Source: Branchiostoma floridae
Taxonomy: Eukaryota > Chordata > Leptocardii > Amphioxiformes > Branchiostomatidae
Length of the DNA: 64,000 nucleotides
Direction: 5' to 3'
Assembly (NCBI RefSeq): GCF_000003815.2
Contig: NC_049992.1
Span: 13,043,369-13,107,368, forward strand
The translations under genes were made by a program, and so were the position numbers. The notes beneath the pieces were generated by a model. It did no database searches. It was not told the DNA's origin and was given only the letters and a program-made list of their open reading frames with translations. Positions 3,750 to 62,945 of this stretch are shown one piece after another (the stretch's first letter is position 1; the number at the start of each line of letters is the position of its first letter).

Positions 3750-6700
3750 TCATTTCCCTTTGTTCCCTTTGGCAGAGGGAGGAGGTCCAAGCTGATCCTT
3801 CAGCATCAGTGTCATCTCTTTCTTCGTGGCTTCGTCCAGTTTTCCCTTCTCTTTAACACGTTTCAGGATGTCCTGACACGCCACGCGCTCGTCCATTAAC
3901 CGCTGGAGGTTCGTCAGGACGTCGTTGTCTGATAGAAGGGAAGATGGCTTCTTTTTGTTGGCCTGTTGGAACAAGAGAATGTCTTATGAGACAAAAAAAA
4001 AAAGACTTGCTTGGTATCAAGTATGTAGAGATGAAGTGTAAATGCTTAAGTTAAGTATAAGTTGATATTCAATATTATTTTTTTGTAAGTGGGTTGACCT
4101 TCCGCTGGGGAATAAGTGACAACAATTTGGGAGAGATCTGCAGTCAGATTTGTATCCAGGAATTTTTCCATCGATTTGTATCCAGGAATTAATGAAGAAT
4201 TCAAGCAAGCAAGCATTCAAAGTAGTATCAGGAGGTAGGGCCAATGGCCTGTAGTGCCCCCTAGTGTTCAGTTTGGAAACTGCATATAAAATTACAGAAC
4301 AATCCTATAAAAAGTATAAAGATACAGTGTTCTAGCCAGTCCCCTAGATTTTGAATGGAAATCCTGTCTAAGGCATGACGATCCTAGGGGGTTCGGGAAT
4401 ATGCTCCCCAGGAAAATTTTGAAATCTAGACCATCTGAAAAGCTATTTCCTTTATTTTGAGGGGCAAATTTTGCTGGAAGACTTAGCTTGGTTCATTCAA
4501 TATCTTATATAACATGCCAATTTTTGTCCATCACAGAGGACAGACTGGGCAAAATTTTTGTCCATCCCCAGCGTCAAAATTTACGGAAGGAGGGATGTTG
4601 GCTAGAACCCTGTAACAGATACATTTTATTCCACAGTAACCCTCCCACCTTGGCAGGTGCCCCGTACACAGCCTGGATGATCTTGCTGCGGAGTCTCTCC
4701 ATACGAGAGGAGGTGGACTCCAGCTCCACCCGCAGCTGCTGCTCGGTGTGCTGGCTGGACAGGGCTAACGACTTGTTCTCATTCAGCTCCGACTGGAGCC
4801 TGGTGTGGACCTGCGGGGAAAACAGTTACATGTTCTACTTAGGCATTTCCAACAGTCAAACTGTCACAGTGTTGTGCTTGAGTTCAGTGTCAAGTAAATT
4901 CATATTGGATACCCAATGACTTGCATGTATTGAAATGGCCAATGGAGAAAACGATGAGTTTAGAAATAAAACCTAGAATGTGGTAAAAAAAAATGTCATT
5001 GTTTTTCTGTTGAACTGTATTGAAAAGAAAAGGCTGGTACTAAGTATTAAAAAACTTGTATAATACACATTGTTCATCACATTTCTCCACAGTTTGCTAT
5101 CACACAAGAGATGTATCTTTACCTCTTTGTCAGCTGCTCTCTGCATCCTCAGTCTCACCATGTCCACCCTGTACTTCTTCAACTGCTGCTCCTGCTCAGC
5201 TGCCTTCTCCTCAACTGTTTTCAATGTCTGTATGTGGGCACAAAAAAAAGAAATCAAAATTGAAAAATACAAATGTAGACATACGATGGAAATGAAAAGA
5301 AAGTAGCATATTTTAGGATCAATGCTTGTGGTTTTAATCCACAAGTAAGGGGTGAAGGTATTCACATTAACAACTCAGTAAGGGACCGTACGGCATTTAG
5401 CGAGGGGGGAGGGCCGGTCGCCAGGGGGGGAGGGCCAAGCAAAAAAATATTTTGCCAGGGGGAGGGCCTAGCAAAATTTTTTTTACTTGGGGGGAGGGCC
5501 AAGCAAAAAAAAAATAGCTTGGTCTGCCAGCAGAATATGTCCCTTAAAATCCAAGAAACGGCGTTTCAGAGGGTCAAGATTTCAAAATTTTTCTGGACCT
5601 CTGCAAGGGATCGCCCGAGGTTGGCGCTCGGGATACAGTGAAAATGCGAAAGGGAGGGGGCGGGGCTTATGCATGACGCCCTCGAAAACCTTCTTCACGC
5701 ACAGAAATGTTATTAAACTCTAGATTAGTCTGCCAGCAAAATTTACCCCTGTCTTATTGCCCTCAAAATGTAAGAAATGGCGTTTCAGAGCTCGAGAGTA
5801 AATATTTGCAAATTTCCCTGGATCCCTTTTGACGTGACCGGCCTCGCGCCTTTGATGACCGACATCATGATAATGTGTTTTGGGGGGATTTAATTTTGTA
5901 TTTCTAAATTGAAATGCTATTAAAGTTAGCTTTGTTTGTCAGCAAAATATCTCCTCAAACTGAAGGAAATAGCTTTTAAGAGGGTCAAGATTTCAAAATT
6001 CTCCCGGACCTACCTTGCGATTCTTCGTGCCTTTGGCGCCGAACATGGTGTTCGGAACGTCGTTCTCAAAAACTTGAAACCCTCGTATTTTTTTTCATAG
6101 AAATGTCATCTAACCAGCAAATTTTCCCATAAAAAAGCAATGCAGGAAATCGTGGCAAAAAAAGCGTGGCATTTCTAAAAGATCTCCTGCAAGTCTGCGG
6201 TCTCACCATGGTCTCACGCCCGCCGGCGGCTAGAGAGAGGCGACCGGTCTTACCCCGCCGTGGGAAAATCAGCGTCACGCGTCGGCGCCCCCCCCCTCCC
6301 CACTACAGTTTTGGAAGTCGAATAGTGCTGTCGTTTTGGTTTTCATTTTTCCCCCCGATTTACCGTAAGTTATTACCACCACAGAACCAAGAAAAAGTCC
6401 AAAATATATGTAAATTGAAAATACTTTCCGTCAAGCCGCTCAGGCCCGCGAGCTTGCAATACGTAAATTTAGGGAGCGGGGCGCGCGCCGCTTCGTGGCG
6501 CAAATCTACTAGAAATCCAGGTACAAATGCTTTTTAGGTGTTGTTTTAATATCAAAACAATGAAATAGCTTCTATAAAGCAAATATTTATGCCTCTATGA
6601 AGCAGATATTTATCCCTCTATTTAGCAGATATTTTGAGCCATTCTGTTTTCCTTTTTTTACTAGGGGTGAGAGATCTGCTTCTCGATGAAAATCATGAAA

Positions 6701-9700
6701 AAGTATGACGCAAAGCACATTTCCAAATGTGGGAGCGCAGTGTTTTATTGGCGTCTTGAATATTTTTTTCAAAGTTGATAGGAGGGGGGAGGGCCAAGCA
6801 AAAATATTTTGTCTTGGGGGGAGGGCCTAGCAAAAAAAATTTTACCTGGGGGGAGGGCCATGCAAAAATTTTTTGACCCGACCCTCTGGCGACCGGCCCT
6901 CCCCCCTCACTAAACGCCGTACGGTCCCTAAAGGGTCATGAAATTGACATCCTGTCATGAAACAGGAAAGCAGCAAGCTGCAATACCACTATCAACTGCT
7001 AGGCGGCGCTGCTGATCCATTGTGTAGGAAACCTTACACCTGTCTACATCTATGGTGAGTCAACAAGAACAACACATGACTAACACAGCGTGACTCACGT
7101 TCTTCAGGTTGATGATTTCTTTCTCCAAGGAGAAGCTTTCGTCAGCTGAAGACTTTTTCTTGTCTTCTCTCAGTCTGGAGAACTGTGGGTGAACAGAGAT
7201 TATGAGTCAGCTCTTACTTGGGTAACCTAATATACTACATCCAGAAATTGTCTTTGGGGGGAAAAGTTGAAGACAAAACAGCACAAATATAATATATGGT
7301 TTGAAATCCACCTAAAAATAGAAGATGTATATCAAACACAACTGACAGCAGAATATATGAAACCAATTTGTTAAGAGGACCCAACAAAACATTATTCTAG
7401 AAGAGCTACAAGAGCTCTTGACCCAATACCCCTTACCCCTAGGCCGTGGCAGAGGAGTATTCTCTCAAGTACACACAATGTATTGCAATACCTTGGTTGA
7501 CATGAGTTCTACTTCTGCCTCCCTCTCTCTGAGTTCCTTCTTAACCTTGTCCATCTCTTTCTTCAGCTTGGCAATATGTTCATCTTTCCTGGTCACCTCT
7601 CTCCTTAGGGACATGACAGTGCCTGCTGACATGTTGTAGTTCTTACTGGTCCTACAAGGGTGAGATAATATCATTTTTTAAAGGATGCAAAAAAATCTCA
7701 AACAAGACATGTCAACATCTGAAAACTGTATAATTAACAATCTAGCCCTTTGCACTCAAATGTGCCCATTACATTTATTTTTCCATTTCTGTCCATTTCT
7801 TTCCTAAAAATGATTTTTAACATGTTGAATAGTAACAGAAATATTCTGAAGAAAAAAAAAACACATTGACATTGTTTATTTTACCTTTCCAGGTCAGCTC
7901 GCAGCGAGGAGACCTCCTGGTTCCGTTCTATCAACTCTGACCTCATGGCTTCATAACTGTCATGGTACACTGAGGAGTCTGCCTGCATTGAGCCAAGCTG
8001 GCAAAGGGAAGACGACAAAACAATAAATACATTAAGACATACACACAAGATCAACATATAACAATTTAAGCATACCAATTTAAACCTTTGGGGCATATGT
8101 AACTGGTTATCTATATTGATATCACAATGTTATAACATTCCATCAAAGTGATAAAGGCATATTTCAAGCTATTACTTACTCACTCACTATCTGGTTTAAC
8201 GTCTGTTGTTCCCCATCCCATGGGGGTTAGACGTGCTATTATTTTTTAGAGGTATATGATTTTTTACCTGATGTCTAAGCCTGGCTAGTTCGTTGTTCTT
8301 GCGAGCCACCTCACTCTCCAGAATAAACAGTCTCTCAGCGATGAAGGATTCGCTGTCTCCGCTGCCCTGTGCCTGTAACAGGGCTCCTTCTAACTGTGCA
8401 ATCTCCTCCGTCAATGATAGAATGGTGTTGTCCTTGTCTCGTGAGTCCTCCTCCAGTAACTGCAGTCTGGACATGTTCTCTTCTAGCTCAGCTATGTACT
8501 GGTCCTAATTTGGAACCAAAAAGGAACATGATTAATCAAAGGGCCAAATTGCAATCCAAAGGATTGACTTTTGGGTGTCATAATTGACATTTTAGAGGAC
8601 AGTGTCAAATCTCGTACTTGAAATAGAAAAGGCCACTTATAACTTATTTACATTTATCAGTACTTACCTTCTCCTCAAGTGTCCTTGCCTTCAGCACCTC
8701 TCCATTGAATAACCTTGTACCAGTGTTCAGGGAACTGTGTGTTACAGACCCATTCAAAGTAAAACCACCATCTTCCTCTACTCCCATGGCTTTGTTACTG
8801 ACTTCCACAGAAGACTGTCCAAACCTCGGACTGGCTGGAGAAGCATCAAAACCATCCTCAAAGGGAACGTGGACATTTCTTGGGGAGTCATGGCCATTTT
8901 GCTGATTAACGTCTCCACCAGTGAAGTTCAAGGCATCCTGACTGACAGACACATGTCCATTCATTTCTTCTGTGAGTTCACCAAGGAAAGAGGCACCGGT
9001 ATCCCCCGAACCGAGGATGTCATGACTGTATCTTCTCCTGTCAGTGATGCCTATTTTCCTGCCCCCCACGGCAGTTTTAACCCTCGGAGGTGAGAACTTT
9101 TTCTGCATGGCGTCCTGAGCCCTGTCCCTAGCCAGGCCACTGTTCTCAGAGCCAGACAGACCTATTCTCTTGGCTGCCAGGTCTCCGTGTGACGTGGGCT
9201 CGTCTCTAGGAGAACTGTTTGGTGTGGAATTCAGACTCTCGTTGCTACTGAGGCTGCCATTGCGCGGAGAGCCGGAGGGTCCTGCAGGTCTGATGCCACC
9301 ATTTGTCATCCATTCAGCCGGTGCTGGGGGAATAAAGGGACAAGGAGAGGGGATTATTCTCTTAAATAACACCACATGTATTATTCATATGACAATCCGC
9401 AGTGGTTAATAAGTTCCTCTGTGGCCTTTAGATGTCTATACCTCTACAGGAGATGGCTTCTGCAGGTGTGAAAGCAATTGACCTGAACTGCCTGGAGATC
9501 TATAATCATGGCTGACAATTGTTGGCATGTCACTATACAAATGTCAATTGTTTGACATTTCAAGTCATAATGTATTCTGGCTTTATATTTTCAAGGTCCT
9601 TTCAGAATCTGTTTTTTCACTTCCCTCTCATATATGGCATTTTTGTTAGCTTTGTCTCTGCTTTTTTTCTTTTCCCTTTATCTCCTGTCTTTCATTATTC

Positions 9701-22204: not shown

Positions 22205-22800
22205 AACGTCTTGTATGGAACTGCTTCCGTGTCTTCAAGGTCCAAATTCCATAGCACCTGCACTGAACTCGAGACTTCCTAAGACCTTGGCGGTACAGTT
22301 GAGAGTGTCGTGAGACTCTTGAAAGCCCAACGGATTGAAAAATCGGTTAAAAAGGCGTCTTAGCCGGCCCTCAGAGGGTTTTGTCGAGTCTACCTGGCCG
22401 ATCCTTGCCTCTGCCAGCCACAATGCAAGGCGGGATCATGTGTCCCATGTTGGATACAACGCACACAATGGGGGAAAACTCCGATCAACAAGTTGACAGC
22501 GCAAAGGGCATGCGTCCCGCTACCATGGCAACACAGGTGACGGCCGCCCCGCTAGGCAGGTGCGCTGAGCAGCACACCTGTTAGGAGCGACGCTTTGCGA
22601 GAAATATACGCATTGCAGCTAGTCAGAACTTGCAAAGCTGTCATAGATTCGTAGGGACATACAAGTTACAGGTATACTAGGCATGCAAGTAACGTTACTT
22701 CTTGAATTAGGTACAACATAACAATACATAACGTTATATCTTCACTGAAAGGTGCTACTGACATCTCGGACCATCCCGGAGGACTGGCCATATAAACTTC
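22205..22800. promoter_or_regulatory. Bidirectional promoter between FHAD1-like and PARK7
   Basis: The two start codons are divergent and about 600 bp apart. GC and CpG content rise across 22380-22600. An RFX X-box match lies at 22519-22532. No TATA box is obvious on either side. Transcription start sites cannot be placed from the sequence alone. Confidence 0.6.
22519..22532. promoter_or_regulatory. RFX X-box match
   Basis: GCTACCATGGCAAC matches the X-box consensus RYYRCCATRGYAAC at every position. X-boxes bind RFX factors and mark promoters of ciliary genes. It lies about 315 bp upstream of the FHAD1 ATG and about 270 bp upstream of the PARK7 ATG. Confidence 0.55.
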
Positions 22801-25800
22801 ATGGCTGCAGCCCGCCAAAGTTGGAAGCTGCTATCCTCCGTCACAAAACGGGTGTTTTTCCCCGTAAAGCTGTCCCAAATAGCCTCGGCAGTTCCCTTCA
22901 TACATTCTATAGCTTCTCGTGACAAGTTTGAACGCCATTTTTCGACAGGTAAGCCAGAAATGCCCACAGAATCTATTAACTTTGTGGGGAGTATGAAGAA
23001 AACGCTTTTCTCGAGCCTTTTACGAGAGTTCAAAGGTCGGATCTGCCAAATGTATACGGGGATATTTATTACCTATAAAAAGTCTACATATATACACACT
23101 ATGCTATTTACTTATTGATGTATTTATAATTTTGCAATGATTTTCATGATTTTTGTATTGTTTTCAATAGTAATATCGAATCTATTTTGTCAACGTAAAT
23201 CCAACACCCCTACGTTTGGTGTGTTCCCTACCAGACAACATGGGTGACGAGGAGGTGACAGCGCTGGTGATTCTCGCCGAAGGTGCGGAGGAGATGGAGA
23301 CCGTAATCTCGGTCGACGTCATGCGCCGCGGAGGGGTGAGGGTCGCTCAGAAATTGTAGACAATCAAGGACTGAAAAGCACAATGTCATGTATTTGCTTT
23401 GCTCGTGACCTCAGAGAGCAAGCGCATCAAAACCCTTACGTTACAACATACCATGACTATGAGCTTTCATGTTGCCTATTCAGTTCTATTTTTGTTAGAT
23501 ACCAACAGTAAGTAGAATAGAAACAAGGGGATATGAAAAAAAAAATTCATTCAGGAGAACTAAGTATTATCCAATGCATCACAATGGCTTAACTCTTAGT
23601 CTTACTATCCAATTTGTTTTCGGATGCCCCTCTTCCATGATTATGAAGGGGGCGTGGTCATATAGGTCATCTGCGGGTATGACAGTCTGACTGTAACATT
23701 AGGAAGTTGAGTAGTTCACATTGATACAGAACATGCTGTCCAAAAGTCAATTCATATACATANNNNNNNNNNNNNNNNNNNNNNNNNNNNNNNNNNNNNN
23801 NNNNNNNNNNNNNNNNNNNNNNNNNNNNNNNNNNNNNNNNNNNNNNNNNNNNNNNNNNNNNNNNNNNNNNNNNNNNNNNNNNNNNNNNNNNNNNNNNNNN
23901 NNNNNNNNNNNNNNNNNNNNNNNNNNNNNNNNNNNNNNNNNNNNNNNNNNNNNNNNGCTCGCAAACATGTAAGCATCTTATGTAGCATTCACTTTCTTTG
24001 CAACAAGACATTGTGTATATACAATCTTACTAATGACATAATGAAACATGATTTCGGAAACGTCCATATCCAGTTGCTGAAATAACTGCTAGTTGGCATA
24101 TTTTATTACCTTGATGTCTAGCCATTGTTGATGTGTGATGAAACATGATTTAGCTCGAGGATATTTTATTACCTTGATGTCTAGCCATTGTTGATGTGTG
24201 ATGAAACATGATTTAGCTCGAGGATATTTTATTACCTTGATGTCTAGCCATTGTTGATGTGTGATGTATACTTAATGTTATTTATAACATGATGAAACAT
24301 GTTTTTGGATATGTTCCAAAATCATATCCAGTTGCTGGAATAACAGCTAGTTGGCATATTTTATTACCTTGATGTCTAGCCATTGTTGATCAGATGTGTG
24401 ATGAAACATGATTTAGCTAGAGGATGTTTTGTTGATATCATTCAGTACATGATGAATTTTTCACAAACATCACAGGTATGCCTGTTATGATTAAATGATA
24501 CTGTTGTATTCCCCAGGGTCCCTATGATGTGGTTGTATTACCTGGAGGACTAGGAGGGGCAAAGAACCTGGCTGCTGTAAGTTACAACTTGTCATATAAT
24601 ATACTTGTTGCATATTATCCAACTCTACTATAGCTGCCCAATGTCTTTTGACCTCTTCTTGAGGAGCTACTAGCAGACCATTGATTTAGAATTGAAATTT
24701 GCCATTGAATTGTACATCACATTTTGTAAACAGTATGACCACCATCTTGTTTCCCTGTGACCTCTGTAGTCCCCCAAGGTGAAGGAAGTGTTACAGGAGC
24801 AGGAAGGGAAGGGATCCCTGGTGGCTGCCGTGTGTGCAGGTGAACGCTTCTTCTTGCTCTCCTTTTTTTCTCAAATTCAGTTGTCCTAACGGGCAAGTAC
24901 ATGCCAAAACCAATTTTTCACTTGCCCAGAATTCGAATCACATTTTCTGTATCTGTATCAATATAGCCGGTATAACCGCCCTTCGGCGTGACCAAGGAGG
25001 TTATATTCTGAATATAACCTCCTTGGCGTGACACACCATTTTCCTAATGCATTTTCACTTCCAGCTATGGAATTCTTTTATTATTGGCTCTATTTTTCTG
25101 TATTGACCACTCAATGGTTGATGCCATTACTGTGAAAAGTAACATGTACATTTATATAAAGATGTCACTCATGGAAAAATCATATGTGCCCAATATGACA
25201 TGCGCTTGCCAGATAGGCGCTTTACTTGCCCTGGACAATCGGGCTAGTGGACTTGTCCAACCCTGTCTTCTTACACATGAAATAAGATGTGAAATAATCT
25301 TTGACAGCACTTTTTTTTAACCTTCTTAACTTTTTTATCTGTGGAGGGCATTGCAATGTCTTTTTTTTTTCAATTTCATACAAGTTGACAAGGTTGCCAA
25401 CCCTTTGCCTCCCCCAGGTCCCACAGCGTTGGTGAGCCATGGCATCGGGAAGGGCAAGACTGTCACCTCTCACCCCAGTGTGCAGAAGGTTATGGAAGAA
25501 GGTATCGTCCAAAGTTTTAGCTTCTAGAGTTAAATACATCTTTAAAAAATGGTTCTGAAGGGAGAAGACATCTTTGTTGTACTTTGTGTGACCCTCACTT
25601 TTTCTCTTTTGACCTCAATGAAAAGCAGAATTTCTGAATGAACAAACAAACATCATCATCATATTGTTCCGCATCAGTACTGCAGTACTTTGCTGGGGTG
25701 TTAGATTCAATATCCATGTACATGAGCATAGTAGATAATCATTTGTATAAAGGTGCAATGTTTAATAAAAGTACAAAGTCTTCCCACTCTAAAAGTGCAT

Positions 25801-26016
25801 GTAGGACTCCTCAGTAGTGTCTGTGTTTAATTTGACCTGTCCTGTTGTGTTCCAGCTGGCCACCCCTACACAGAAGCCCGTGTGTCCAGAGATGGCCACA
25901 TCATCACCAGCAGGGGGCCCGGAACCTGCTTTGAGTTTGCTCTGCAGATCGTAGAGACGCTCCGAGGCAAGGAAGTGGCTGACAAACTGGTCTCTCCCAT
26001 GCTGGTCAAACTGTAG
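22801..26016 (+). CDS. PARK7: PARK7 / DJ-1 with N-terminal mitochondrial-type presequence
   Basis: Exons: 22801-22948, 23235-23335, one exon mostly inside the assembly gap ending at 23968, then 24517-24576, 24770-24839, 25418-25501, 25856-26016. Exon 2 gives [20 protein letters not shown], matching the DJ-1 core start and keeping the active-site Glu of GAEEME (human Glu18). Exon 4 gives the DVVVLPGG strand. The join of exons 5 and 6 gives AAVCAGPTA, the nucleophile elbow (human Cys106). Exon 6 has TSHPS (human His126) and exon 7 has TSRGPGT. Exon 1 joins exon 2 in phase and adds 51 residues. They are rich in Arg/Lys and hydrophobics and end RHFST, a classic mitochondrial cleavage context. An in-frame TGA lies 45 nt upstream of this ATG. 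The expected protein is about 240 aa against 189 in human. DJ-1 family members act in oxidative-stress defence and as glyoxalase/deglycase-type enzymes. Confidence 0.95.
23763..23956. other. Assembly gap (194 N) hiding most of a PARK7 exon
   Basis: The first visible bases after the gap, 23957-23968, read GCT CGC AAA CAT and are followed by GTAAGC. They encode ARKH in phase 0, which fits the end of the DJ-1 exon (human ...LEDAKKE) just before the GPYDVVV exon. The missing exon, roughly 100 bp, therefore ends at 23968. It should carry the residues equivalent to human Cys46 and Cys53. Confidence 0.75.
24044..24425. repeat. Tandem and interspersed repeat array in a PARK7 intron
   Basis: Two near-identical 63-bp units start at 24137 and 24200, beginning GATGAAACATGATTTAGCTC. 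Diverged full copies of a longer unit, containing CATATCCAGTTGCTG and ATTACCTTGATGTCTAGCC, occur before (24048-24136) and after (24290-24420). A related copy sits in a DDB2 intron at 60739-60840. Confidence 0.8.
24992..25026. repeat. Near-perfect palindrome, 17-bp arms
   Basis: CCAAGGAGGTTATATTC is followed by one base and its exact reverse complement. It lies in a PARK7 intron and would form a tight hairpin; it may be the core of a small inverted-repeat element. Confidence 0.8.
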
Positions 26017-28994: not shown

Positions 28995-31900
28995 CTAGAG
29001 GCTGCTGCCTGTCCCCTCCTCCCCCATGATGACCTTTCTGTAGAGGCGGTTCATCTGTTCCAGGAAGATAAAGGTGATGACCGTGTGGGGGCCCAGACGG
29101 AAGTAGTATGGGGTGAACCCCTTCCACAGGCTGAACAGCCCCTCCTGTCTGATGACCTTGTACAGCACGTCCAGCGCTCCGCGATACTCAGCCTTCCCAT
29201 CCACTACCTTCATGTTCTGTATCCTGTACATAGCCGGCCAAGAATATGTTATCTCTTATGATAAGTAATAGGTCAAACATGCAAGTGTCAAGTATATGGT
29301 CTAAACTTACCCAGTAGCTGTGTTAACTTTTTTTTTCATTGTTTCCCTGTGATTTGGTTTTTTCAATGGATATCTAGCTACATTAATCTAAAACTTTTGC
29401 TGTGTATTGTGGACGTACAGTAATATGCTTTTAACTACACGCAGTGATGTTTGGAGTTGAAAGCAACTTTGCGAGGCTTGACATCTACAAAATAATTTTT
29501 CACATAAACTGGTGTATGTCCTCCATTGTAATCACTGTGGCAAATTTTAACAATTCAGAACATAAACACCAAATTACCCAAAATTTTCCCATTTCATGGT
29601 AGATTCTACCACAAAAAGACCTTTGATGGATCAATAAATGTTACACTCTTTTGTTCAATCAGATGCCTGATTTATATACAAAGTTTGGTGACTGACAGGT
29701 TGAGTACTGACCTGGTTTTCGCAATGTCCACTGGCATGGAGGCAGCAGTGGTGACCAGACCACTGATCATACTGGCAAAAAAGTGACACAGGATGTTGTC
29801 ACGAAACCAACCTAAGAAAACAAACAAATAATAACAAAAATAAGTGAGAAAGCATTGATGGACATTTCACATCCAGGTAATAAGATGCACTAGTACAAAC
29901 TTTTTCAAGCTACTGGATCAGTTTAATTGTTCAGATGTTTCAGATACCTCAGTCACTGAGGAAAGAGTGGATGCTGTCTGAAATGTCTGGCCATTTATAA
30001 AACTTACCAAGCTGCTTGAGTTACTTTTGAATTGTGCATTAAAAAGTAAGTGGGAAAAGTACCTATCTCAATCTTTTGATACAAGGTTGATAGCAAGTTT
30101 TATTTATCTATTTTTTACACAGAAAGTGGTTTTCAATATAGTTACAGGTAGTCCAAAGCTAAAGCCTAAAGTAAAGGTATTTCAAAAAACAAAGACACCT
30201 ACCTGTACCCAAGAGGAACTGCTTGGCTTGAGAGTAAGATGCCAGCTGAGCTGCATTCACCACAACAGCTCTGGACACCGTCGGGCCACAACCCTGGAAC
30301 ACAAGCAAAACTGATTAACACCAAGGTGTTTGTGCTATCTAAGACACTACATTTAGTAATTAAGAAAGTCAAACCTGTCAAACCTGGTCGCTCAAGGGAC
30401 TGAGCAAATTTGACCACTATGAACTATAACTTCAAGGCCACCCTAAATTTATTGGTTGTTTCACAGATTTTTTCAGAAAAAAATTCAACTGACAGGTAAA
30501 AACAAAATGCACAAGTAGTTATGAACATGAATAAGACTACAGTACAACTTGACTTTTTCAATACTAATCAAAGACTTCTGGTTTCATCATTTTAAGCAGC
30601 ACAAATATCTGCAAGCTGTATTTTACTACCTTTAGCTCTGGGACACAGCAAGGGACCTCACCTTTCCCTGTTTCATTCCTATTGCCCTATTGTTTTCATG
30701 ACAATCTATCTATTCTGTATTATAGGTACTCACTCTCCATAAAGTGAAGAGACCTTCTTCCCTAGTTATCCGAGCCAAGGCATTGAAAACACTGCTGTAG
30801 TTCCTTCTTTCAGCTACCGGTAATCTACAATTGGGGGTGAAAAGACATTCAACCATTTGAAAAACATATGACATGTTTGAGCTTGTGCAGTTTGTTGCTC
30901 ATCACATTAAGACTTGACATACCAAAACTGGTTCAGTGTGATATTTTTAAGCCATCAATAGAGTACAAAAGATAAGATGAAACATGTACAAAGCAGTAGG
31001 AAAAATACAAATGTAACACAAAGCCAGAAGGAAAATGACACTGTTTATGTTTATCAAGATGCTGACCAGAGTTATATTTTTATGTTGTATAAGAAATACA
31101 TGTACTATAAATTCATAATCAAACAAGAAAGCAAAGAAGGTCCTTGCCTTCCATCTGCTGTCATCCTTATAAGTGAGATCTCTGCAGGAGTTCCTACAAA
31201 TGCACCAATTGCACCTGCTGTCATACCTGTGGACAAGAAACAACAGGTCTAAGCTATAATCAAATACTGGATACAACTACTATAATGTATTGATGTATTG
31301 TCTAAGGCGGGTATTTTGTCTTCCAGCCTATTCAATCTAACCGCCTTATTGCAATGTCTCATATATATAGTATCATCATTCTCACAACACTTCAAAGTGT
31401 CTAAGCAGTGTACACACCTATCCCTGCTTTCATGAAGAAGTTAGGGGGCTGACCATTCTTGCTAAATTTCTCAAACAGAATGGTGTAGATACCCAGACGG
31501 GTGGTGGTGTAGGAGGCTTGTCGTAGAAGCCCTGCAGACAACCTGGAGAAAGAAAAAGCCTCACCAGTACTGTACCATATGATAATGTGCTATGAACGTG
31601 GTGTATAACATTTGAGGTAACAAAGCCAACACACTTGTTACAATTTCATTTATTTCTTGAACCTATCAAAGCAAACTTTTGTAGTAGGATCATCAGAAAA
31701 TGGCAACTGTTAGCAAAACTTGACTCCACAAACAAAGAAATCTTGCTACAAGCAGAAAAAGTCCTTCTTAACTTATGTATATATCTACTCATTAGATTTG
31801 TTATACTACTTATAGTTAAGAATAAGAATAAAGATGTCAGTTGCACTTACCCTGTATACATGCCAATAATGCCTTCAGATCTCAATATACTTGACACAGC

Positions 31901-34900
31901 ATGAAAACTGGTCTTATATTGTCTCTTCCCCCCTCCTTCACCTGGAAACAAAAGTAACAAGAATTTACAACAGATTTAAATGATATTATTCAGTTGTATA
32001 TCGGATCCATACCCTAATTAAGAATAAATGACACTTATTGAATAATCAAAGGATAGGTGAATTCAGACATCCCTACAATCAAATAAAACTCATCCAAATA
32101 TTTAAACATCAACAAAACCTTAGAATTACACTTACCACTTAGCTGCATTCTATTTTTCACCAGGTCGAGGGGTTGAACAAATAGAGTTGCACCCATGCTG
32201 CAAAATAGCAAAAACAATTTACAGTCAAACCTGTCTATAGCGGCCACTCAAGGGACTGGTCAAAATTGGCCACTATAGAGAGGTGGCCACTATAGAGAAT
32301 ATGCTAATTATTTGACCACAAGCAATAAGTTACACATGGTTTTAGTACCGACTGATCTTTATTCACACAATACAGTACTGTACATGTACTGCAATGATTT
32401 TTACACTATATGTATTAAGAAAATAAAAAGTTTGAAATGTTCTACAGTTGATATTGTCTGAAGAGACCGGCATAGGGTGACGATACGGCCGCTGTATATG
32501 GCCGAACGCGTGCCGAAACATAGATCAGCGGTCCGCGTGGCCGTAATCGGCAGTGTTTTTGTACCTGCGGGACCGGAAATTGTGTGGCCGTGGCCGCGTT
32601 GGACAGGTGGCCGCTAAGCCTATTTCTTAATCATTACGAATCCAAGGGACCGACAAAAAGTGGCCACTATAGGCAAGTGGCCGTTATGCAAAGGTGGCCG
32701 CTAATACAGGTTTGACTGTATACCTAAATTGCCAAGGCATGAACAATAATAGTGAAGAATCAAAGAGCTTAATTCTAAGTACTGCAAGTAATTCATACTT
32801 TTCTAAGTTAATGATCTTAGTCAGTGCATCTGCACTTTGTCCTACTTTGCTAATTTGTAACTTAAGTTTATGTGACCTGTGTTGACTGACTGAGCAGTAT
32901 TCTGTATTGTACCTTTATGAGTACTATTGTCATTTGTTCCTTTGTCATCTGTTCCTTTGCGCATAATAGCTACCATGCAAAAGTTAAAGGCAATCTAAAC
33001 AACAACTCTGTCTAGATAATTGAGTGGTCAAACAAGTAACTAGTTCTTTTCAATACTAGTGTATTCCTAATGCAAATACAAATTGTAAAGGTTGGGTTGT
33101 TAGAGCATGCAAATTGATGCCAAAAGGTGGGAATACACATCACTTTTTACAAAATTGTGAATGGTATCATTAATATACCTTTAACCCAGTACCTTAAACC
33201 AGCCCAACGCAGAACCAGAGGAAGTCACATGTTTAAATATCAGTTTATCACAGCTAGAAGAGACTGCTTCAAATTTTCTTTTTTCCCTCGCACGGTAGTT
33301 GAGTGGAACAGGCTGCCAGGGCACACTGCCCAGGCCCCGTCAGTCGAGGTCTTTAAGGCCGGTTTGGCTGCCTCGCCCTAATCCGCAAGCCACCCCCCCC
33401 CCCTCAGCGACACGCCAGTGGGGTTTTTCGAGGGTAACAAAGACGAAGATTTTTAATTGGCATTAGTGCAAAAAATTAACATTGTGACCTCTTTGTCTTG
33501 CATTATTTGTAACCAAAGTAAACATACATTCTAACATTCTAACAAGAAGTATGATACACAGACACATCACTCCACATCAAATCAATACGACACAGGTGTT
33601 GCATCATGCAAACTGTCAAAGGTTACTACAGGTCACTGATCAGCTAGATCAAGAGCAGGGATAGGTGATATTCTTATCTTTTCCTTTTTTCATCGCGTTA
33701 CTACTTATAATGGAACATTTTTCTTATGCCATGCCCATCTTTCTTACTATTTTGAATCTTTTCTTTTTCTTTGGTTTCAACATACAAACTTTCTTTCTGC
33801 ACTGTATACACCTGACAACTCCAATTTGCCCCCGATATACAAGTAGTTCATTCGTTTATGCATAGATTATAGCTGCAGGGCACAGACTTTGAATGAAGAT
33901 CAAATGGCCTGGGCTGCATTCACGGTGCACACCCCAGTTCTTCCGCCACCGGGGTCCGTGGTAGTGCGCGACAAAAAAGTGACGAAAGGCTTCCGAGGGT
34001 CTATGTTTGAGTTGAGATTTCTCATTATTTCCTGCGAAATGACATTAAACGGTTACATGGCTGAAAAGCGTAGGAAATGGTGTGTTTTTGGTGCAAATTG
34101 CGTTTTGGTCCGCGGCTTACTTTCGGGATATCCCTACGCCTGAATGTGATTAGGCTCGTGACCTAGATTGAGCTCTGAAGCGCTGTGTTAAGCCAAGTTG
34201 CAATGCCGCGCGTCTTGGATGATTAAAAAAACTGTAGTACTAGAATTTTCTTCATAATTGGCTGGATTACTCTTTAGACTTTCCTCTTTCTGGCAGTATC
34301 AGTCGTGCTTGCCGGAAAAATCTGCTTCATCTGTTTTATCCAATGCGAAAATGCCCGATTTTGTGCATCATTTTTGACATGAAAATAATGGTTTTTCCCT
34401 ATAATTTTTCAAAATTAAAGAAGTTGAAGGATCAAAACTCAGTTGGTCTTGTAGCTGAAGGAATATCTTCTCACCCCATAACTAGTTATTTTGCTTCAGG
34501 ATAATTCCCTGGAAGAGATGGTCGCTAGACTTCAGGGTGTGCCGCCTCCATTTGAAACCCCAAATAAACTGGGGTGTGCCCCCTTCAGTTGGAATCCCAA
34601 GAAAGCAGGGAGGTTTTACATGACAAGAGGCAAGACTTTTGAAACTTTGATTACAAAGTAATTATAAACATGTCCATTAATCCCACTGCTTGCATTTCTA
34701 GCTCAGTAGTCTGCATTTCCAAACGTTATGATTGTTTCCGAATAAGACGTTGAATCTTTTAGAGTGGAGAAGAAAATTGCACAAATATGATCATGAACAT
34801 AATTTGCTGACAGTCAATCTACAACAAGAGGGCGTGAACCAGTTCCCGCGCTCTGTCCTCTATTAGTATTAGCTCCCTCCTGGAGACCACACAAAATGAT

Positions 34901-35313
34901 TTGCCAAGCCAAGCTAGCTGAGGGGCGTGACGAGAAAACATCTCTCTTTTAACTTATGTCTAATTCATGAAATGCCAACAACTCGGTGTCATAACAAGAA
35001 ACATAAAATCCAAACACAGGATCTGGAAAGTGTCACAAAACGGAGATAATTTGGCTTTGATAAAAATCCCAGCCCCAAGTAAGCCTTGCGACAGCACAAA
35101 GAATTGCAAAACGCCGGTCGACAAGGACACGATCTGACCCGATTGTGCGTGCGTTTTCAAGCTTCGGGAAGCATTTAACTCTCGCAAACATATAAACAAG
35201 ACTTCAGTCAAAGATCTATGGGCTCAGAAGTAACCTACTTACCCCGCAAGCCCTCCGAAGAGGAACTTGATGTACTTGGGCATCGTCTTCTTCGCGTCTG
35301 TCTGGGCAGCCAT
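28995..35313 (-). CDS. SLC25A11: Mitochondrial 2-oxoglutarate/malate carrier
   Basis: Nine coding exons on the minus strand: 35243-35313, 32136-32197, 31851-31941, 31418-31542, 31148-31226, 30734-30824, 30203-30293, 29712-29811, 28995-29223. Their 939 nt give 312 aa; the human protein is 314 aa. The protein is an inner-membrane antiporter that exchanges 2-oxoglutarate for malate in the malate-aspartate shuttle. All three mitochondrial-carrier signatures are present: PLDLVKNR (exon 2), PAEISLIR (exon 5) and PVDIAKTR (exons 8-9). Other family landmarks are KFLFGGLAG at the N-terminus, RQASYTTTRLGIY (exon 4), RAVVVNAAQLASYSQ (exon 7) and WKGFTPYYFRLGPHTV near the C-terminus. Exon 5 ends in AAG|GCAAGG, so its intron is GC-AG type. 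Exon 1 is separated from exon 2 by a 3-kb intron holding a MITE and a LINE fragment. Confidence 0.97.
30366..30442. mobile_element. CAGTCAAACCTG-family MITE fragment
   Basis: It begins AGTCAAACCTGTCAAACCTG, runs into CGCTCAAGGGACTG as in the large copy at 32222, and is cut off at about 30442 with no right end. Confidence 0.5.
32222..32718. mobile_element. CAGTCAAACCTG-family element, 497-bp copy
   Basis: The left end is CAGTCAAACCTGTCTATAGC and the right end is inverted (AATACAGGTTTGACTG). TA dinucleotides flank it at 32220-32221 and 32719-32720. Both ends carry repeated GGCCACTATAG-type motifs in opposite orientation. The centre is GC-rich with many CGGCCG-like triplets. It lies in SLC25A11 intron 1 and has no coding capacity. 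Confidence 0.8.
33127..33381 (+). pseudogene. 5'-truncated non-LTR retrotransposon, RT-ORF C-terminus
   Basis: An open frame ending at 33381 encodes about 80 residues, including FYKIVNGIINIPL, RRTRGSHMFKYQ, FFPRTVVEWNRLP and SVEVFKAGL. The pattern FFPRT(I/V)xxWNxLP followed by a short helix is typical of the last residues of reverse-transcriptase ORFs in animal LINEs. No upstream RT core is present. A poly-C tract and short 3' tail follow at 33390-33460. Insertion is in SLC25A11 intron 1, opposite strand. Confidence 0.75.
33462..35242. other. Rest of SLC25A11 intron 1
   Basis: No exon was recognised. Sequence near 34520-34600 has two imperfect copies of a GGGTGTGCC(G/C)CC(T/C)-containing segment, which looks like repeat debris. 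Confidence 0.4.
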
Positions 35314-35759
35314 GTTGGGATAGTGAGGTGAAAGGTCACCCTCCTTTGACGTCATCAAAATAACACTCTTATTTAAAAAATTCACAAAATCGAAAATATA
35401 ATCGAGAATTTTAGCTTCTCTGGCATTTCATTATCTAGTTAGAGTAGTTGAATCCTAAAGCATATTTCTAACTACACAGGTTTAGTATTTTGGCTTCGCA
35501 AAACTGTGACCTCACGTGACTATAAGGTTAGGGATAGTACATTACTTACTATCTAATGAGCTTTAAAGTTCAAAGGTGTTCAAAGACATTCTTCAATTAT
35601 AGCTTTTCAACACATTTTAAGTTATTTCGTTGTATGTTCTTTCAAAACGATATAAAATTCAGTGCTTGAATGTCAATTCTGCATGAGTACCATAATATTT
35701 AAATAATCCTAAATTGAATAGTGGTTTATCCCTGGTAATTGAGATAAGAGTTCGCCATA
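35314..35759. promoter_or_regulatory. Upstream region of SLC25A11
   Basis: The short segment before the ATG is the probable 5' UTR/promoter. The CACGTGA at about 35513 is an E-box core. If 35760-35892 is a plus-strand exon, this is a bidirectional promoter. Confidence 0.35.
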
Positions 35760-47040: not shown

Positions 47041-48805
47041 GGGACCTGACGATATTTACCGGGGGGGGAGGGCTGGTGCATAGGTGGGGGGGGCCAATGA
47101 AAAATTTTTTGAGCCGAGGGGGGGGCCATTGAAAAATTTTTTGAGCCGAGGGGGGGGCCATTGAAAAAAAATTGCCTTAGGGGCCTTGATAAATACAAGG
47201 AAAATGTGCCCCTGAAATGCAGGAAATGAAGTTTCAGATGGTCAAGATTTCAATTTTTCTCTGGACGTCCCTTGCGACGGCTTGCGCCTCCGGCGCACAC
47301 AACACTTCGGCACTCGTCGCCATCAAAAATTTCTTCCTCTGACAGAAAATTGTCATTACATTTAGCATAGTCTACCAGCGAAGTTTATCCCTCAAAATGC
47401 AGAAAATCGTGTCGCAGAGGTCCAAACTTCATCATTTGAATGACATTTCTCCAGTCCTACCTTGCGACGGCTCGTGCCATGCCCGGCGCTCGAAATCGTG
47501 GAAATACGTTGGGGCGTCGTCGCCCTCAAAACCATGTGAAGTTCTAATAGAAAGGCTTAAAGCTTAGTCTGCCAGCAAATTTTGCCCATCAAAATTTAGG
47601 AAAGATCGTTTCAGATAGTCAAGATTTCCAAATTTTGCCGGGGAAGCATGCCCCCCGGACCCCCAAGGATTACGTTGATATAGTTCACCCTGATCCCCAT
47701 GCTGAGAAATTTTCTGCAACTGCCTCTGTCGTGTGATTCCATGTTCGCACGAAGTTTAAGAAAACTATAGAAACTAAAATTGGTATAGATATCAATCCTG
47801 CGTGCATCTGTTCTTTGTATTTGGAATGGTTCACGGACGGCAACGGGATAAAACATTACGATGTTTACTTTCGTGACAGCGGGCTCTCTGCTGCATGTCG
47901 ACGTAATCATGGTGGCGCGAAATTTTTTTGGCAATTTTGTAGGTTGCAATTGGCCGAAATAACTCCCGTTTTGGAAAGATTGAAGCAGTCTTGAAGCGGT
48001 TTTCGAAACGATATCGCTAAAATGTACCCAAGGCTCTTCCATCTACAACATTAATTTGTTTTCTTTTGTGCAAATTTCGTACATGTGTAGTGGAAAAGAT
48101 CGTCTTGGATTACCGCCCCTCCCCGCCCGCTTTTCTCTTCGTTGATGTGGACGCATAAAATCCACATTTTTTTGCCTCACAGAATGCGGGAAATTTCGTT
48201 TTAGAGGGTCAAAATATCAAAATTTCCCGGGTAGCATGCCCCTAACCCCCGAGACCGGTCGGGCCTTCGGCCCTCCGATCCCTGGACGGCCTTTAACAGC
48301 TAGCCGTCGGTCCGGCGGAAACGCTCAGTTTCGTGATCTTGCGTATTAAACGTTACCAGAGACTTTTTTCACGTAGATCGGAGAAGTGATATCAGACAAG
48401 GTAAGTCTTATAACCGTTGCAGCGTGAGTGTAACAATATCAAGTGCTACATGTTTGTATATATGTCATCAAAATGAAAACTCGGCTGTTGTAAAACTTTG
48501 GGAGATAACATATGCCCCAGCAGGACTCCAACGTGCGTAATTTGTTGACGCGCGGGTCTTGACACCCCGGTCGTCGTCACGTTCAAACAACGCTACCGCT
48601 ATTGTTATTGCTATATTATTTAATGACAGACTGTGTGTAATGGAAAAGGCAAGGAAAAGTTGGGGGGGGGCCATTGAAAAATTTTTTGAGTCGAGGGGGG
48701 GGGCCATTGAAAAATTTTTTGAGCCGAGGGGGGGGCCATTGAAAAATTTTTTACCAGACCTATTTTGCACCAGCCCTCCCCCCCCAGTAAATAACGTCAG
48801 GTCCC
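47041..48805. mobile_element. 1.77-kb non-autonomous DNA transposon with TAA target duplication
   Basis: Terminal inverted repeats start GGGACCTGACG and continue ATTTACYGGGGGGGGAGGG. TAA flanks it at 47038-47040 and 48806-48808. Three tandem GGGGGGCCATTGAAAAATTT-type units lie inside each end, inverted. The interior has diverged repeats with the core CAGRAAATCGTTTCAGA near 47220, 47400, 47600 and 48200, also found in the element at 5382. The 143-codon minus-strand ORF at 47611-48042 matches no transposase I recognise. Confidence 0.75.
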
Positions 48806-50239
48806 TAAGTCCGGATGTTGTCCTGTTTTGTGTTGGGCAGACTGTTTCCGGGACGTCCCGTTTCCCTCCAGAATTTACATAAGGAGGGTAAATACACCCA
48901 AACTAGCCATTTGCTGTTAGGTGTGCGATTTGCCGTTACGGGTGTGGTTTGAAAAAGGTCTGTATGTATTTTCTGAAAGACTATCAAGACTATTCTTGGC
49001 TGAAAACGGCTGAATTAAGCAATTTTAGACAAAAAAACTAGCAGACTTTTGACTTGTGGGAGGGGGGCAAGTGATTCACTTACATGACACCATGCCTCAG
49101 GCCGTAGAACTTATTAGCAGAGTTGATTGCAAATTGTCTGGATGTTGTGATATCTTAGATCTTTGATTATTTGAAAATTCAGAAGTATTACTTTTTTATC
49201 TTTCATCACAGGAAATGATTTATTAATCATCTGAAATTAATTGGAGGAGGAATTTACATTGACTATTTCCTTCAAATTTTTATTCCAAGATTCTTTTTCA
49301 GTAAATATGTTGTTAAAAAAACGTTCAGCAATGTGATTATTGTTGTTCATTGGTAATGTAGGTGTTGGATGTCTTTTAATCATTGGCACACAATTTGTTT
49401 ACATTCTGGTGGTGTGTATTTGAAAGCTTCGTTTTCTTTTGTGCTGCAAACTTACAGTACAGAGTAGGCAAGTTGTGCTTTCATTCACCAGTAAAAGGAA
49501 GCTACAAAAGACATTTGTTATTTCTAGTGTTAATTCTGTTGTGAAAAGACTGTGAACTTGATTGCCTTACCTGTCTGTAGATTTTAGTACTTACATGTAT
49601 TTTCTTTGCTGATTTACCGTCAATATACTCGTATTCTTATGTAAAACTCTTGGTGACAGGTTTATACAGCATCTTTCATAAAAGTGTTCAAAATATATGA
49701 AATCTTCAGTAGGCAACTACATGTGTAGTCATAAGAAAGCATTTCTTGTACTGTACATGTTGCTTCTTACTAATCTTAGTATAATCGATTCTATTGCAAT
49801 TTGGTTCAGAGCAAATAACAATTTTCGGGTAGTTTTCATCCAGCTGGTCCAACACAGTCAACATCAGAACAAAGACTCTCCTAGCCAGTCATATCTTTGA
49901 TATGTGTCCCTGCTTCTCTTTTCCTTTGTGTGTGGGACACTGACCAATTTCCCTTGGGATGGAGCCCATGGCAAGTTGATTGTTTTTGTATAATGAACAG
50001 GTGAAAAGGAAGATGCAGATTCATGTCATCAAGATCCTGAATCAACAAAGATCAAACCAAAACTTTCCAAAATGCTGATTGCAAAACCTGATGGTGGTTT
50101 TGTTCTTTGCTTTATTGGACAATTTTAGCATCATATTTAGCAAGAACTGCTGGCCAAATGTGGTGTGGATACAGATTGACTTTTTGTCCATTCTACACAA
50201 ATGTAAACCATGCATATTTTTTTCTGTTTCCTTGTGCAG

Positions 50240-50392
50240 CAAACAAGAAGCAGTGGTGCAGCAGTTGCCCATAACACACGCCTCCGCAGCCTGCGGGAGT
50301 GCAACTGCCTGAGGTCCCGGATACGCCAACTGCGGGAGCAGACCCGCCGACAAGTTTCCAGGATTTCCAGCGCCAACAGACAAGTGCGGGCC
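50240..50392 (+). other. SPSB1: SPSB1 5' UTR portion of the first coding exon, open in frame
   Basis: The exon begins after a pyrimidine-rich tract and CAG at 50239. All 51 codons from 50240 to the family-conserved Met at 50393 are open in the SPSB1 frame and Arg-rich, so an upstream exon could in principle add an N-terminal extension. The conserved MGQKV start makes UTR the simpler reading. Confidence 0.6.
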
Positions 50393-53300
50393 ATGGGACA
50401 GAAGGTGTCTGGTGGGGTGAAGACGGCAGGGCCAGGGCGGGAGCCGTCACTAAAGGCTCTGAACTCGGACAGGGACTTGTTACACCCCGACATGCAGAAG
50501 CCTAGCCGACTAGATATGCTCCTTGATATGCCACAGGCGGACAGGGAAACACAAGTCAAACACGCGTGGAACAACGAAGATCGGTCACTGAACATTTTTG
50601 TGAAAGAAGACGACAAACTCACCTTCCACAGACACCCGGTTGCTCAGAGTACGGACTGTATTCGTGGTAAAGTTGGGTACACAAGAGGACTTCATGTATG
50701 GGAGATTCACTGGAGCACGAGACAACGGGGGACGCATGCTGTGGTAGGAGTAGCGACAGAGCATGCCGCCTTGCATTCGGTAGGGTACCAGTCTCTAGTG
50801 GGGAGCAACGCAGAGTCGTGGGGCTGGGACTTGGGAAGGAACAAGCTCTACCACGATAGTAAAAACAACCCCGGAATCACGTATCCTAGGACATTGAAAG
50901 CGGATGAGAACTTTGTGGTACCAGACAAGTTCCTTGTAGTTTTAGACATGGATGAGGGCACAATCAGTTTTGTAGTGGACGGACAGTTCTTGGGCATCGC
51001 CTTCCGTGGACTGAAGGGAAAGAAGTTGTACCCAATTGTCAGTGCAGTGTGGGGACATTGTGAGATCACCACCAAGTACATCGGAGGCTTGGATCGTAAG
51101 TATACCTAACAGAAACCTTTTATGTGTCTACTTTTTTTACAGATGTCCNNNNNNNNNNNNNNNNNNNNNNNNNNNNNNNNNNNNNNNNNNNNNNNNNNNN
51201 NNNNNNNNNNNNNNNNNNNNNNNNNNNNNNNNNNNNNNNNNNNNNNNNTTAACATGTGAAAACCATGGCATTGCAAAAATTTTAGGAACAAAATGACCTT
51301 AAAGAATACTGAGGTAGTGTACTGTAAATCCATACAGCTTCATGTTTTTGTCATACCCTGCTGATAACTCGTGCGCTGCTATGATATGAATTAGACAAAT
51401 GGTGAGAGATGTGCTTCGGTCTCATGGGAACAGGGGGCCCACTTCAGTTTGCCATGTATGTGAATTGTGAAACCCTCGCACGTGCTCGTGGTGATGCATA
51501 ATCTCAGACCCTTCAGAACCGCGTGGTATATTTGTAGGATTACTTAGATGATGAAGAATTCACATGCCTGGTGCTGTGACAGGGTGGATTGGAGGGCACA
51601 GCTGAAAGGACAGCTGGGAAAATAGCAGTAGGGGCAACAAAGGCCAAGCATTTCACCTAATGGTCCATTTGGACTTAAAAGAAAGTTGTCATTTTGTAGT
51701 CATGGCATCATTTTGAGATGTTATAACTTGCTTTCTTCAGAGAAAGCTCTTTGGCAGTATTTTTTTATCCTTGCCTTTTGCCTATGAAATTTATGATTCA
51801 ATACATTCTGTCATAACCTAATAGAAGAAAATTGAGTTCAAGCATGAATCTTTTAGTGTGAACTGTAAAGACTGCTTTCCATAGAGAAGAGCTTCAAGAA
51901 AGAAATCAAATACTTATAGGCTAGAAAGTAGAAACAGGCTAGAAAGTAGAAACAGTGTGACTTTCAGTTTATTGGTTTATATCTTCATAGTAAATTACCG
52001 GTTTGGAATCTTCATCTTTGTGCAGAAAACCAACTAAACCTATTGCGAGGGGAGTACTACACTCTACAGTGTAGTAGCCTGGTATCCAGCAGTATTATAG
52101 TTCCCTGGTCTCTTCAGTCTGCATTTGTGGAGAGGACAGAAGAGGCTTGGAGCTATGATACGGCTGGATACCAGGCTAACAATGTAGGCCAACAATTCTG
52201 TGGTTCCATGTAGTAGAGTGTGGACTGAACAGAAGACAGACAGCTGCAGTGACAGGTGGTGTCTTCTTGTAGCTGTAGGGGTTCAACTGATTACATGTAT
52301 TATTAGTTGTGATGCCCCATGTGGGTTCTCATCTCATCTTCTACTCAGCCTCTTATTATGCCTGGATTGGAAAAAGCTTTTTTTCTTCTTGAGTCACTAA
52401 GATTATTAAAAAACTAAGATATTGAAAAACTCTATCTAACATTTAAACGTATATAGATTTTGTCATGTTGATGGAGATAAACACATTATAAGAATGACAA
52501 GTCAAGGTTCACCTGTATATTTTAGTGGACACAGGTTAATGGTTACAGCAAGGGAATGGGTTACATCTTTTTATACAACATTCATGTCGGTCAAAGTGAT
52601 GAAAGTTTAAAATGAATTGCAGCTGCAAGTTCAAAAGTTCTCTTGGTAGATATTATAACAGTGAACATGCAATGCCCGAGTAATATTCTATGTAATCCCA
52701 GGCAGTCTGAATGGGAACGGGTTTTCTGCGCGTTAAAAATCTGTGCGCACGTTAAAAATCTGCGCGTTAAAAAACTAAGTTGTGCATTGAGAAATTCTTA
52801 GATGTAAAATCATATAATGGGGTCACATTTTTCATCCTGTTACCTGAATTTTTGGTTTGAAAAGCACCTAATTGTTAGGTCCCTTGGGAATAGGCTAATT
52901 TGCATATCCAAAAGATTTCAAAATCACTTGAATTAGACACAAATACATGGAAAAATTACTAGTGTGAGGCTTTATATCATAATATATAACTGCTTGGGGC
53001 TTTTTTTCCATTCTACAAGGTTCATTTCATCTTTTCTCAAGCAGATTGTTTCACATGCAAATATCAACCTTTGTTGCGCGTTAAAACTTAATGTTTAAAA
53101 ATCACTTTAAAACTCCTGGAAAGGGATATTTGTACTCTAGAATGCAACAATATGATACTTAATTTCATCTTGTGTTATCTTCTTCAAGCTTTTAAGTTTA
53201 AAACTGCAAAAAAATTTTCAAATCCCCAGGGAATCAGCTAATTTGCATATTTTAACACACAGGTTTTTAACGCGCAAGTTTTAACGCGCACAAAACCCCA

Positions 53301-59438: not shown

Positions 59439-59498
<60 letters not shown>

Positions 59499-62400: not shown

Positions 62401-62530
62401 TCCTACTGGATGATCTTTTCTTGGCTTTACGAGGCAGAAACTCAGGATTCTCAAAGTCATCTTCATCACTACTGGATGGAGTATCTGAGAGATGCTTCCT
62501 CTTGTTGGACTTCTTGGATGCCGGAGCCAT
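57064..62530 (-). CDS. DDB2: DNA damage-binding protein 2 with long basic N-terminal extension
   Basis: Nine coding exons on the minus strand: 61448-62530, 61118-61318, 60538-60683, 60072-60171, 59547-59724, 58667-58812, 58136-58300, 57808-57853, 57064-57248. They give about 749 aa; human DDB2 is 427. The start is MAPASKK at 62530; an in-frame ATG at 62548 is possible. Residues 1-320 are low-complexity Lys/Ser/Asp. From about 345 the DDB2 fold begins: [29 protein letters not shown], then WD repeats. Key human positions are kept: the Lys before VTHV (human 244), the Arg in KLWDIR (273, the DWD box that binds DDB1), and the F-Q-H finger (334-336) in FFQHLTPIK that inserts at UV lesions. DDB2 senses cyclobutane dimers and 6-4 photoproducts and acts as a CUL4-DDB1 ligase receptor in nucleotide excision repair. 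The C-terminus is longer and more basic than in human. Confidence 0.95.
57325..57537. mobile_element. 213-bp hAT-type MITE with 8-bp target duplication GTACAGAC
   Basis: GTACAGAC lies at 57317-57324 and 57538-57545. Perfect 12-bp terminal inverted repeats, CAGGGCTGTCTC, begin with CA as in hAT elements. Insertion is in the last DDB2 intron. Confidence 0.85.
59102..59173. repeat. Hairpin with perfect 25-bp arms
   Basis: Arms begin TTCTACCGGGGCTCCTTACA (59102-59126) and are exactly complemented at 59149-59173 with a 22-base loop. Outer flanks (CCATCC.../...GGATGG) extend the pairing imperfectly. It lies in a DDB2 intron and is a probable fold-back MITE. Confidence 0.75.
59426..59496. repeat. 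(CA)n microsatellite
   Basis: About 27 uninterrupted CA units lie at 59442-59496, preceded by an interrupted CA stretch. It sits in a DDB2 intron about 50 bp from the exon at 59547. Confidence 0.97.
60739..60840. repeat. Dispersed repeat shared with a PARK7 intron
   Basis: It contains CATATCCAGTTGCTTGAGTTA, TTGGCATAT and ATTACCTGGATGTCTAACC in the same order and spacing as the copies at 24048-24136 and 24290-24400. Confidence 0.7.
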
Positions 62531-62945
62531 ACTTACTGTTGTATACACTTAGTTTATCAGGATCATATCTGAAACATCAAATTATGATTCAATGTGAATA
62601 TGTTGTTGCAAGATTTTTTTGTTAATACAGCAATTCACAGCATCATCATCATGACCAAGGAAATTATATGAGTACCGTTATACACGTGGGTGCACAATGG
62701 GTAGGCTTAACTTATCTGGATGTCCTTGGCTATGTTCCTGGGACGAGGAATAATTTGCAAACGCTTGCTTGCGCCTTTAATACCCATACTGGTACTTCCC
62801 CCTCCCCCATATGCGAGCAAACATCACACAGCGCTAGCAGTCAGTACAGATCATGATGACTTTGCAGCCGAAAGGGATCCTACCGCTATCCACGAATAAC
62901 TCCACATACTTCTACGTTACACAAAGTCTTCTACACACACTTACC
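62531..62945 (-). other. DDB2: DDB2 5' UTR segment and first intron
   Basis: A TTTCAG acceptor (62569-62571) would start the coding exon at 62568. A GTAAGTGTG donor on the minus strand at 62944 would end a non-coding first exon at 62945. The 62531-62568 UTR holds a short out-of-frame-ended uORF (ATG ATC ... TAA). Confidence 0.5.

Follow-up and report, generated by a model that had tools for sequence, protein, structure and literature searches.

A putative cleavable mitochondrial presequence encoded by a separate first exon of the sole DJ-1/PARK7 gene found in a lancelet genome

INTRODUCTION

Since human DJ-1 carries no import signal, how DJ-1 gets to mitochondria is an unsettled question. The cited passage of PMC3542337 gives the human protein no targeting signal, in agreement with the initial annotation of the DNA studied here, which had described human DJ-1 as leaderless. 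In the passages cited, mitochondrial localization is reported for Drosophila DJ-1 alpha and beta (PMC2268956, with reference to Park et al. 2005), and Arabidopsis AtDJ1B is predicted to go to mitochondria and/or chloroplasts and AtDJ1C to chloroplasts, both having N-terminal extensions (PMC3160306). Predicted mitochondrial location is given for 11 of 142 fungal Hsp31 proteins in the cited part of PMC4021431, and yeast Hsp31 paralogs go to mitochondria under glyoxal stress by a route that the passage cited calls poorly studied (PMC10431920). Plant aminoacyl-tRNA synthetases, in the account excerpted from PMC7600831, use an upstream AUG to add a mitochondrial leader of 39 to 56 residues and a stronger downstream AUG to make the cytosolic form.

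Among the matches listed in open-licence PMC, titles and the beginnings of abstracts describe no leader on any animal DJ-1, and a search of the same kind of text found no paper on a lancelet DJ-1/PARK7 gene. PMC2654450, considered as an amphioxus DJ-1 paper, was set aside since its mention of amphioxus, in the part cited, is the title of a reference. A database gene model that includes a DJ-1 leader may exist. Here, we analyzed a 64,000-nucleotide stretch of the Branchiostoma floridae genome (called the window; assembly GCF_000003815.2, contig NC_049992.1, positions 13,043,369 to 13,107,368 of the forward strand) and describe a DJ-1 gene whose first exon encodes a leader resembling a mitochondrial presequence.

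RESULTS

Gene structure and copy number

The DJ-1 gene lies on the plus strand, with six visible exons that join in phase at GT/AG splice sites (Table 1). Judged by profile and alignment scores, the core of this gene is a member of the DJ-1/PARK7 family: it matches TIGR01383 with 158.3 bits (cutoff, 131.25) and Pfam DJ-1_PfpI with 129.9 bits (cutoff, 26.6) and aligns with human DJ-1 at an E value of about 1e-54. This alignment starts at residue 53 to 58 of the model, which places residues 1 to 49 ahead of the conserved protein. Two hallmarks of DJ-1 are found in it, the Cys of CAGPTAL (within VAAVCAGPTAL) and the GAEEMET motif. Human C106 is the nucleophilic cysteine, and both motifs have functional roles in DJ-1. 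The core visible in the window sequence is one exon short of full length, and the missing exon, which would encode the human part between RRAG and GPYDVV, presumably lies in the 194-N assembly gap. The DJ-1 intron near this gap carries an exact 63-bp tandem repeat (2.7 copies, 24098-24266).

Table 1. Coordinates of DJ-1 gene features in the window (a slash marks a splice site or a predicted cleavage site)
Feature	Position	Strand	Details
In-frame TGA 5' of exon 1 ATG	22759..22761	+	From sequence; 42 nt upstream; open frame from 22762
TATAAA	22791..22796	+	From sequence; 10 nt upstream of exon 1 ATG (22801)
Exon 1	22801..22948	+	148 nt; ATG and 49-residue presequence-like leader; phase 1 end; donor CAG/GTAAGC
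Codons of R45-H-F-S-T49, R-3 type motif (R-x-F/S), leader end	22933..22947	+	From sequence
Exon 2	23235..23335	+	101 nt; completes D, then N, internal Met and DJ-1 N-terminal core
Internal Met ATG in exon 2	23240-23242	+	Context AAC ATG G
Assembly gap, 194 N	23763..23956	.	Presumed site of missing DJ-1 exon
DJ-1 core exon	24517..24576	+	Open, in phase; aligned to human DJ-1
DJ-1 core exon with Cys aligned to human C106 (VAAVCAG)	24770..24839	+	Open, in phase; from alignment
DJ-1 core exon	25418..25501	+	Open, in phase; aligned to human DJ-1
DJ-1 last coding exon, stop TAG	25856..26016	+	Open, in phase; from alignment

The initial annotation had proposed that exon 1 is in frame with the DJ-1 core exon, that it has a single possible start, and that it encodes about 50 residues, rich in Arg/Lys and hydrophobics and ending in RHF-ST, with the features of a mitochondrial-type presequence. 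Each of these proposals was borne out by our analysis. Exons 1 and 2 form a single 83-residue open frame that is closed upstream by an in-frame TGA, and no ATG occurs in any frame between the exon 1 ATG and the exon 2 Met. The exon 1 donor is within the best 5 of 7,703 GT sites on both strands of the window, as scored with a weight matrix, which speaks for a real exon 1, whether coding or not.

Searching the whole genome (513,431,437 bases in 431 contigs) with the DJ-1 protein gave five matches, all of them scored and all exons of this gene; no second DJ-1 gene, a possible source of a cytosolic form, was found by this search. A Pfam search of the genome, in which seven candidates were scored, pointed to one other place, C11:722644, which is PfpI-like by eye and was rejected as a second DJ-1. 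The Pfam search did not list the split DJ-1 gene described here and would miss another split gene; the protein search is therefore the stronger argument that DJ-1 is present once.

The exon 1 leader

The leader of 49 residues contains 4 Arg and 4 Lys with 2 acidic residues (D41 and E44), giving a net charge of +6, and ends in ERHFST. Neither acidic residue is among the first 40 positions, which have a net charge of +6. The hydrophobic moment is highest, at 0.505, in the segment that begins with residue 1, and a single-sequence AlphaFold2 model (pLDDT 74.5) places helices at residues 3-19 and 24-48. An MPP-type processing motif, RHF/ST, is present at residues 45-49, which we take to be of the R-3 type. 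By its sequence and predicted fold, the leader is presequence-like: N-terminal, net positive, with few or no acidic residues, and able to form an amphipathic helix.

DNA and protein searches of the genome for relatives of the leader return only exon 1 itself, and a genome DNA search for an mRNA-derived, processed copy with exons 1 and 2 already joined, which would have proved the junction, gave just the two exons. Four PDB sequence matches of the leader, all to ARX1 (E, 0.18 to 0.20), and a Pfam match to Cse1 (13.4 bits; cutoff, 22) were taken as chance. Foldseek with the leader model returned nothing at E values up to 10.

Presequence controls from the same genome

To set the leader beside presequences of the same genome, six human mitochondrial enzymes were used as probes in one genome search, which gave 11 matches. 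Four of the six, MDH2, HSP60, ATP5F1B, and IDH2, yielded presequences, all with an R-3 type motif like that of the DJ-1 leader: MDH2 ...LRNF/SSTTA, HSP60 ...ARRGY/AK, ATP5F1B ...SRRTY/AAEA, and IDH2 ...QHRNY/ASGK. These control exons are gene predictions from sequence alone; the MDH2 first exon was the sole filter candidate, and for ATP5F1B the highest of 4 candidates and for IDH2 the last of 5 were picked, both by phase and likeness and not blindly. Net charges of the control presequences range from 3 to 7 and moments from 0.32 to 0.75, and the DJ-1 leader falls inside both ranges.

MDH2, ATP5F1B, and IDH2 also resemble DJ-1 in that a separate first exon encodes all or most of the leader. Among these three split controls, only MDH2 has leader and motif both wholly on that exon; IDH2 has its leader there and a motif that straddles the first splice junction, and in ATP5F1B, which has most of its leader on exon 1, the motif begins exon 2. 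The HSP60 presequence shares an exon with the mature start. A presequence on its own exon is thus ordinary in this genome, and its presence on DJ-1 is the unusual part. The four controls differ from DJ-1 in being classical matrix proteins with a positive coding score and a purine at position -3. For SOD2, the mature exon was found (TRL-KHTLPDL), presumably not of the R-3 type if cut as in human, and none of three filter candidates was a start exon; the genome search with human citrate synthase was without a match.

Neighboring genes and repeats

Upstream of DJ-1, and divergent from it, is an FHA-domain gene (22204-22100 and 14384-14196, both minus strand; 57.8 bits for Pfam FHA with the exons joined), which we take to be FHAD1-like. 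Its ATG faces DJ-1 from about 600 bp away, and the two genes may therefore share a promoter. On the other side, DJ-1 is adjoined by a mitochondrial carrier gene at 29000-35430 on the minus strand (Mito_carr, 47.8 bits on one exon), presumably SLC25A11-like. Farther along are a SPRY-domain exon at 50207-51106 on the plus strand (72.4 bits), assumed here to be SPSB-like, and WD40-like exons at 58000-62550 on the minus strand, whose weak Pfam match is below the cutoff; the latter, which we assume to be DDB2-like, are near a 399-residue Lys/Ser-rich open frame. In humans, PARK7, SPSB1, and FHAD1 are all on 1p36, which hints at an old synteny of the DJ-1, SPSB-like, and FHAD1-like genes with this region. 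The window also contains arrays at 47086-47168 and 48662-48752 with nearly the same 32-33 bp unit (GGGGGGGGCCATTGAAAAATTTTTTGAGCCGA), and 32-bp units at 5426-5511 and 6784-6878 that are partly similar to it. Rfam gave no match at gathering scores.

Alternative readings of exon 1

The alternative that survives best, although we consider it unlikely, is that exon 1 is a non-coding 5' leader, with RNA starting near 22820 from the TATAAA or at an alternative first exon, translation starting at the exon 2 Met as in human DJ-1, and the open frame being a coincidence. Given the usual spacing from TATA to start, a working box at this TATAAA would start RNA near 22820, after the exon 1 ATG. The hexamer occurs in 426 of 25,584 40-nt stretches of the window (1.7%) and within 60 nt of the ATG in none of the four control presequence genes. 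Further support comes from donor-like sites upstream of exon 1 (e.g., 22559 and 22536) and from the weak context of the first start codon (TTC ATG G, with T at -3); at -3, all four controls have a purine. The stretch between the two starts, free of ATG in any frame, points the same way, with 290 of 4,737 GC-matched stretches (6%) lacking ATG by chance.

Codon usage can be read in the same direction. Exon 1 scores -0.044 bit per codon, which is neutral, and only 2 of the 27 coding pieces of the window score lower; 1,056 non-coding open windows average -0.25, and 19% of them reach the score of exon 1. In the control comparison, where the codon training set leaves out a 360-codon piece used in the window scoring, exon 1 scores -0.015, compared with 0.11 to 0.45 for the four control presequences. 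The neutral codon usage, the TATAAA, and the T at -3 are compatible with exon 1 being a 5' leader and equally with a first ATG that is used less.

Against a non-coding exon 1 stands the coincidence that it needs, namely, a frame that is open in the right phase (3-7%), has the charge and helix of a leader (2%), and carries an R-3 motif at its end (0.2%). These factors may be dependent, they come from overlapping, non-independent positions, and the motif among them was picked after being seen. Of 82,172 non-coding positions, 2,766 (3.4%) have an ATG-open frame of at least 40 codons in the needed phase upstream of them; this holds for 917 of 14,037 GC-matched positions (6.5%) and for 4 of 171 AG/GTR sites. 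Among the 2,766 chance open frames, 56 (2.0%) equal exon 1 in charge, acidic residues, and amphipathicity as measured by the moment, and 5 (0.2%) carry R-x-[FY]-[SA] within their final six positions. Dinucleotide shuffling of exon 1 left 9,901 of 60,000 sequences open, among which 2.1% match charge, acid, and moment jointly. Counting exon 1 and some overlapping frames, 16 of the 220 open 49-codon ATG frames in the window have a net charge of at least +4 and no acidic residue in the first 40; one of the 15 others, at 46232 on the minus strand, has equal charge and a higher moment than exon 1, which counts against the presequence reading. The divergent FHA-domain gene, starting near 22204, speaks against a TATA-directed start inside exon 1, since it suggests a shared promoter region, and in such regions TATA-directed starts are less usual.

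That exon 1 is translated for another job, such as nuclear, membrane, or secretory targeting or as an uncleaved regulatory tail, seems improbable to us. By eye, the basic residues of the leader form separate clusters and residues 24-38 or so are fairly hydrophobic, as such roles might call for, but there is no extended, unbroken hydrophobic core like that of a signal peptide, and an R-3 motif at the end together with an amphipathic helix at the N terminus suits a presequence better. An assembly artefact, with exon 1 misplaced or part of another gene, is the least credible reading, because despite the 194-N gap within the gene and the 63-bp tandem repeat nearby, exon 1 occurs once in the genome by DNA and protein searches, is joined to exon 2 by gap-free sequence, and has the gap downstream of both.

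DISCUSSION

We conclude, with a probability of roughly 0.75, that exon 1 of the one DJ-1/PARK7 gene detected by our genome searches encodes a cleavable mitochondrial matrix presequence. The exon structure, phase, single start, sequence properties, and lack of a second copy in the searches are results of this study, and we infer from the sequence that transcription begins upstream of the ATG and that import, cleavage, and perhaps two products follow. Import through TOM and TIM23, with processing by MPP and Icp55-type trimming, is an established pathway. The amphipathic, positively charged helix of the leader would lead the DJ-1 precursor through TOM and TIM23, and MPP, followed by the Icp55-type trimming implied by the R-3 site, would cut at RHF/ST and leave STDN before the conserved DJ-1 start. 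Since cleavage is thus predicted where exon 1 ends, the mature enzyme would be almost unmodified DJ-1 in the matrix.

A cytosolic form may arise if some ribosomes scan past the first ATG, or if shorter transcripts are made, so that translation starts at the conserved DJ-1 Met. Two DJ-1 products are plausible because the context of the first ATG is weak and that of the exon 2 ATG is strong. A dual location of DJ-1, which the initial annotation had suggested from the internal Met, is plausible too. More tentatively, and with doubts that outweigh our confidence, one could picture the sole DJ-1 gene of a chordate giving constitutive matrix-imported DJ-1 by a true cleavable presequence and cytosolic DJ-1 by leaky scanning. 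A built-in mitochondrial form, genetically encoded, would then have existed in early chordates, and vertebrates would later have swapped it for a conditional translocation that needs no leader, as exon 1 lost its coding role. If the presequence is genuine, lancelet DJ-1 would be a natural experiment that points to a DJ-1 role inside the matrix, one start-codon mutation would allow matrix and cytosolic roles to be separated, and the history of exon 1 in vertebrate PARK7 would gain an account that can be tested.

The plant aminoacyl-tRNA synthetases, as described in the excerpt of PMC7600831, resemble lancelet DJ-1 in combining a weaker first start with a stronger second one; they are different enzymes, and the two forms are experimental there and inferred here. 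Within the family, Arabidopsis AtDJ1B and AtDJ1C, likened by description only, share an N-terminal extension with lancelet DJ-1 but have tandem DJ-1 domains (PMC3160306, passage cited). The fungal proteins belong to the Hsp31 branch and, unlike lancelet DJ-1, have no leader described in the passages cited (PMC4021431, PMC10431920). Drosophila DJ-1 alpha and beta, known here by description and not by N-terminal sequence, likewise have no leader in the cited parts of PMC2268956 and PMC3063780. Human DJ-1/PARK7 shares with the lancelet protein the family core, the aligned Cys region, and the N-terminal ALVILA strand, and differs from it in having no leader.
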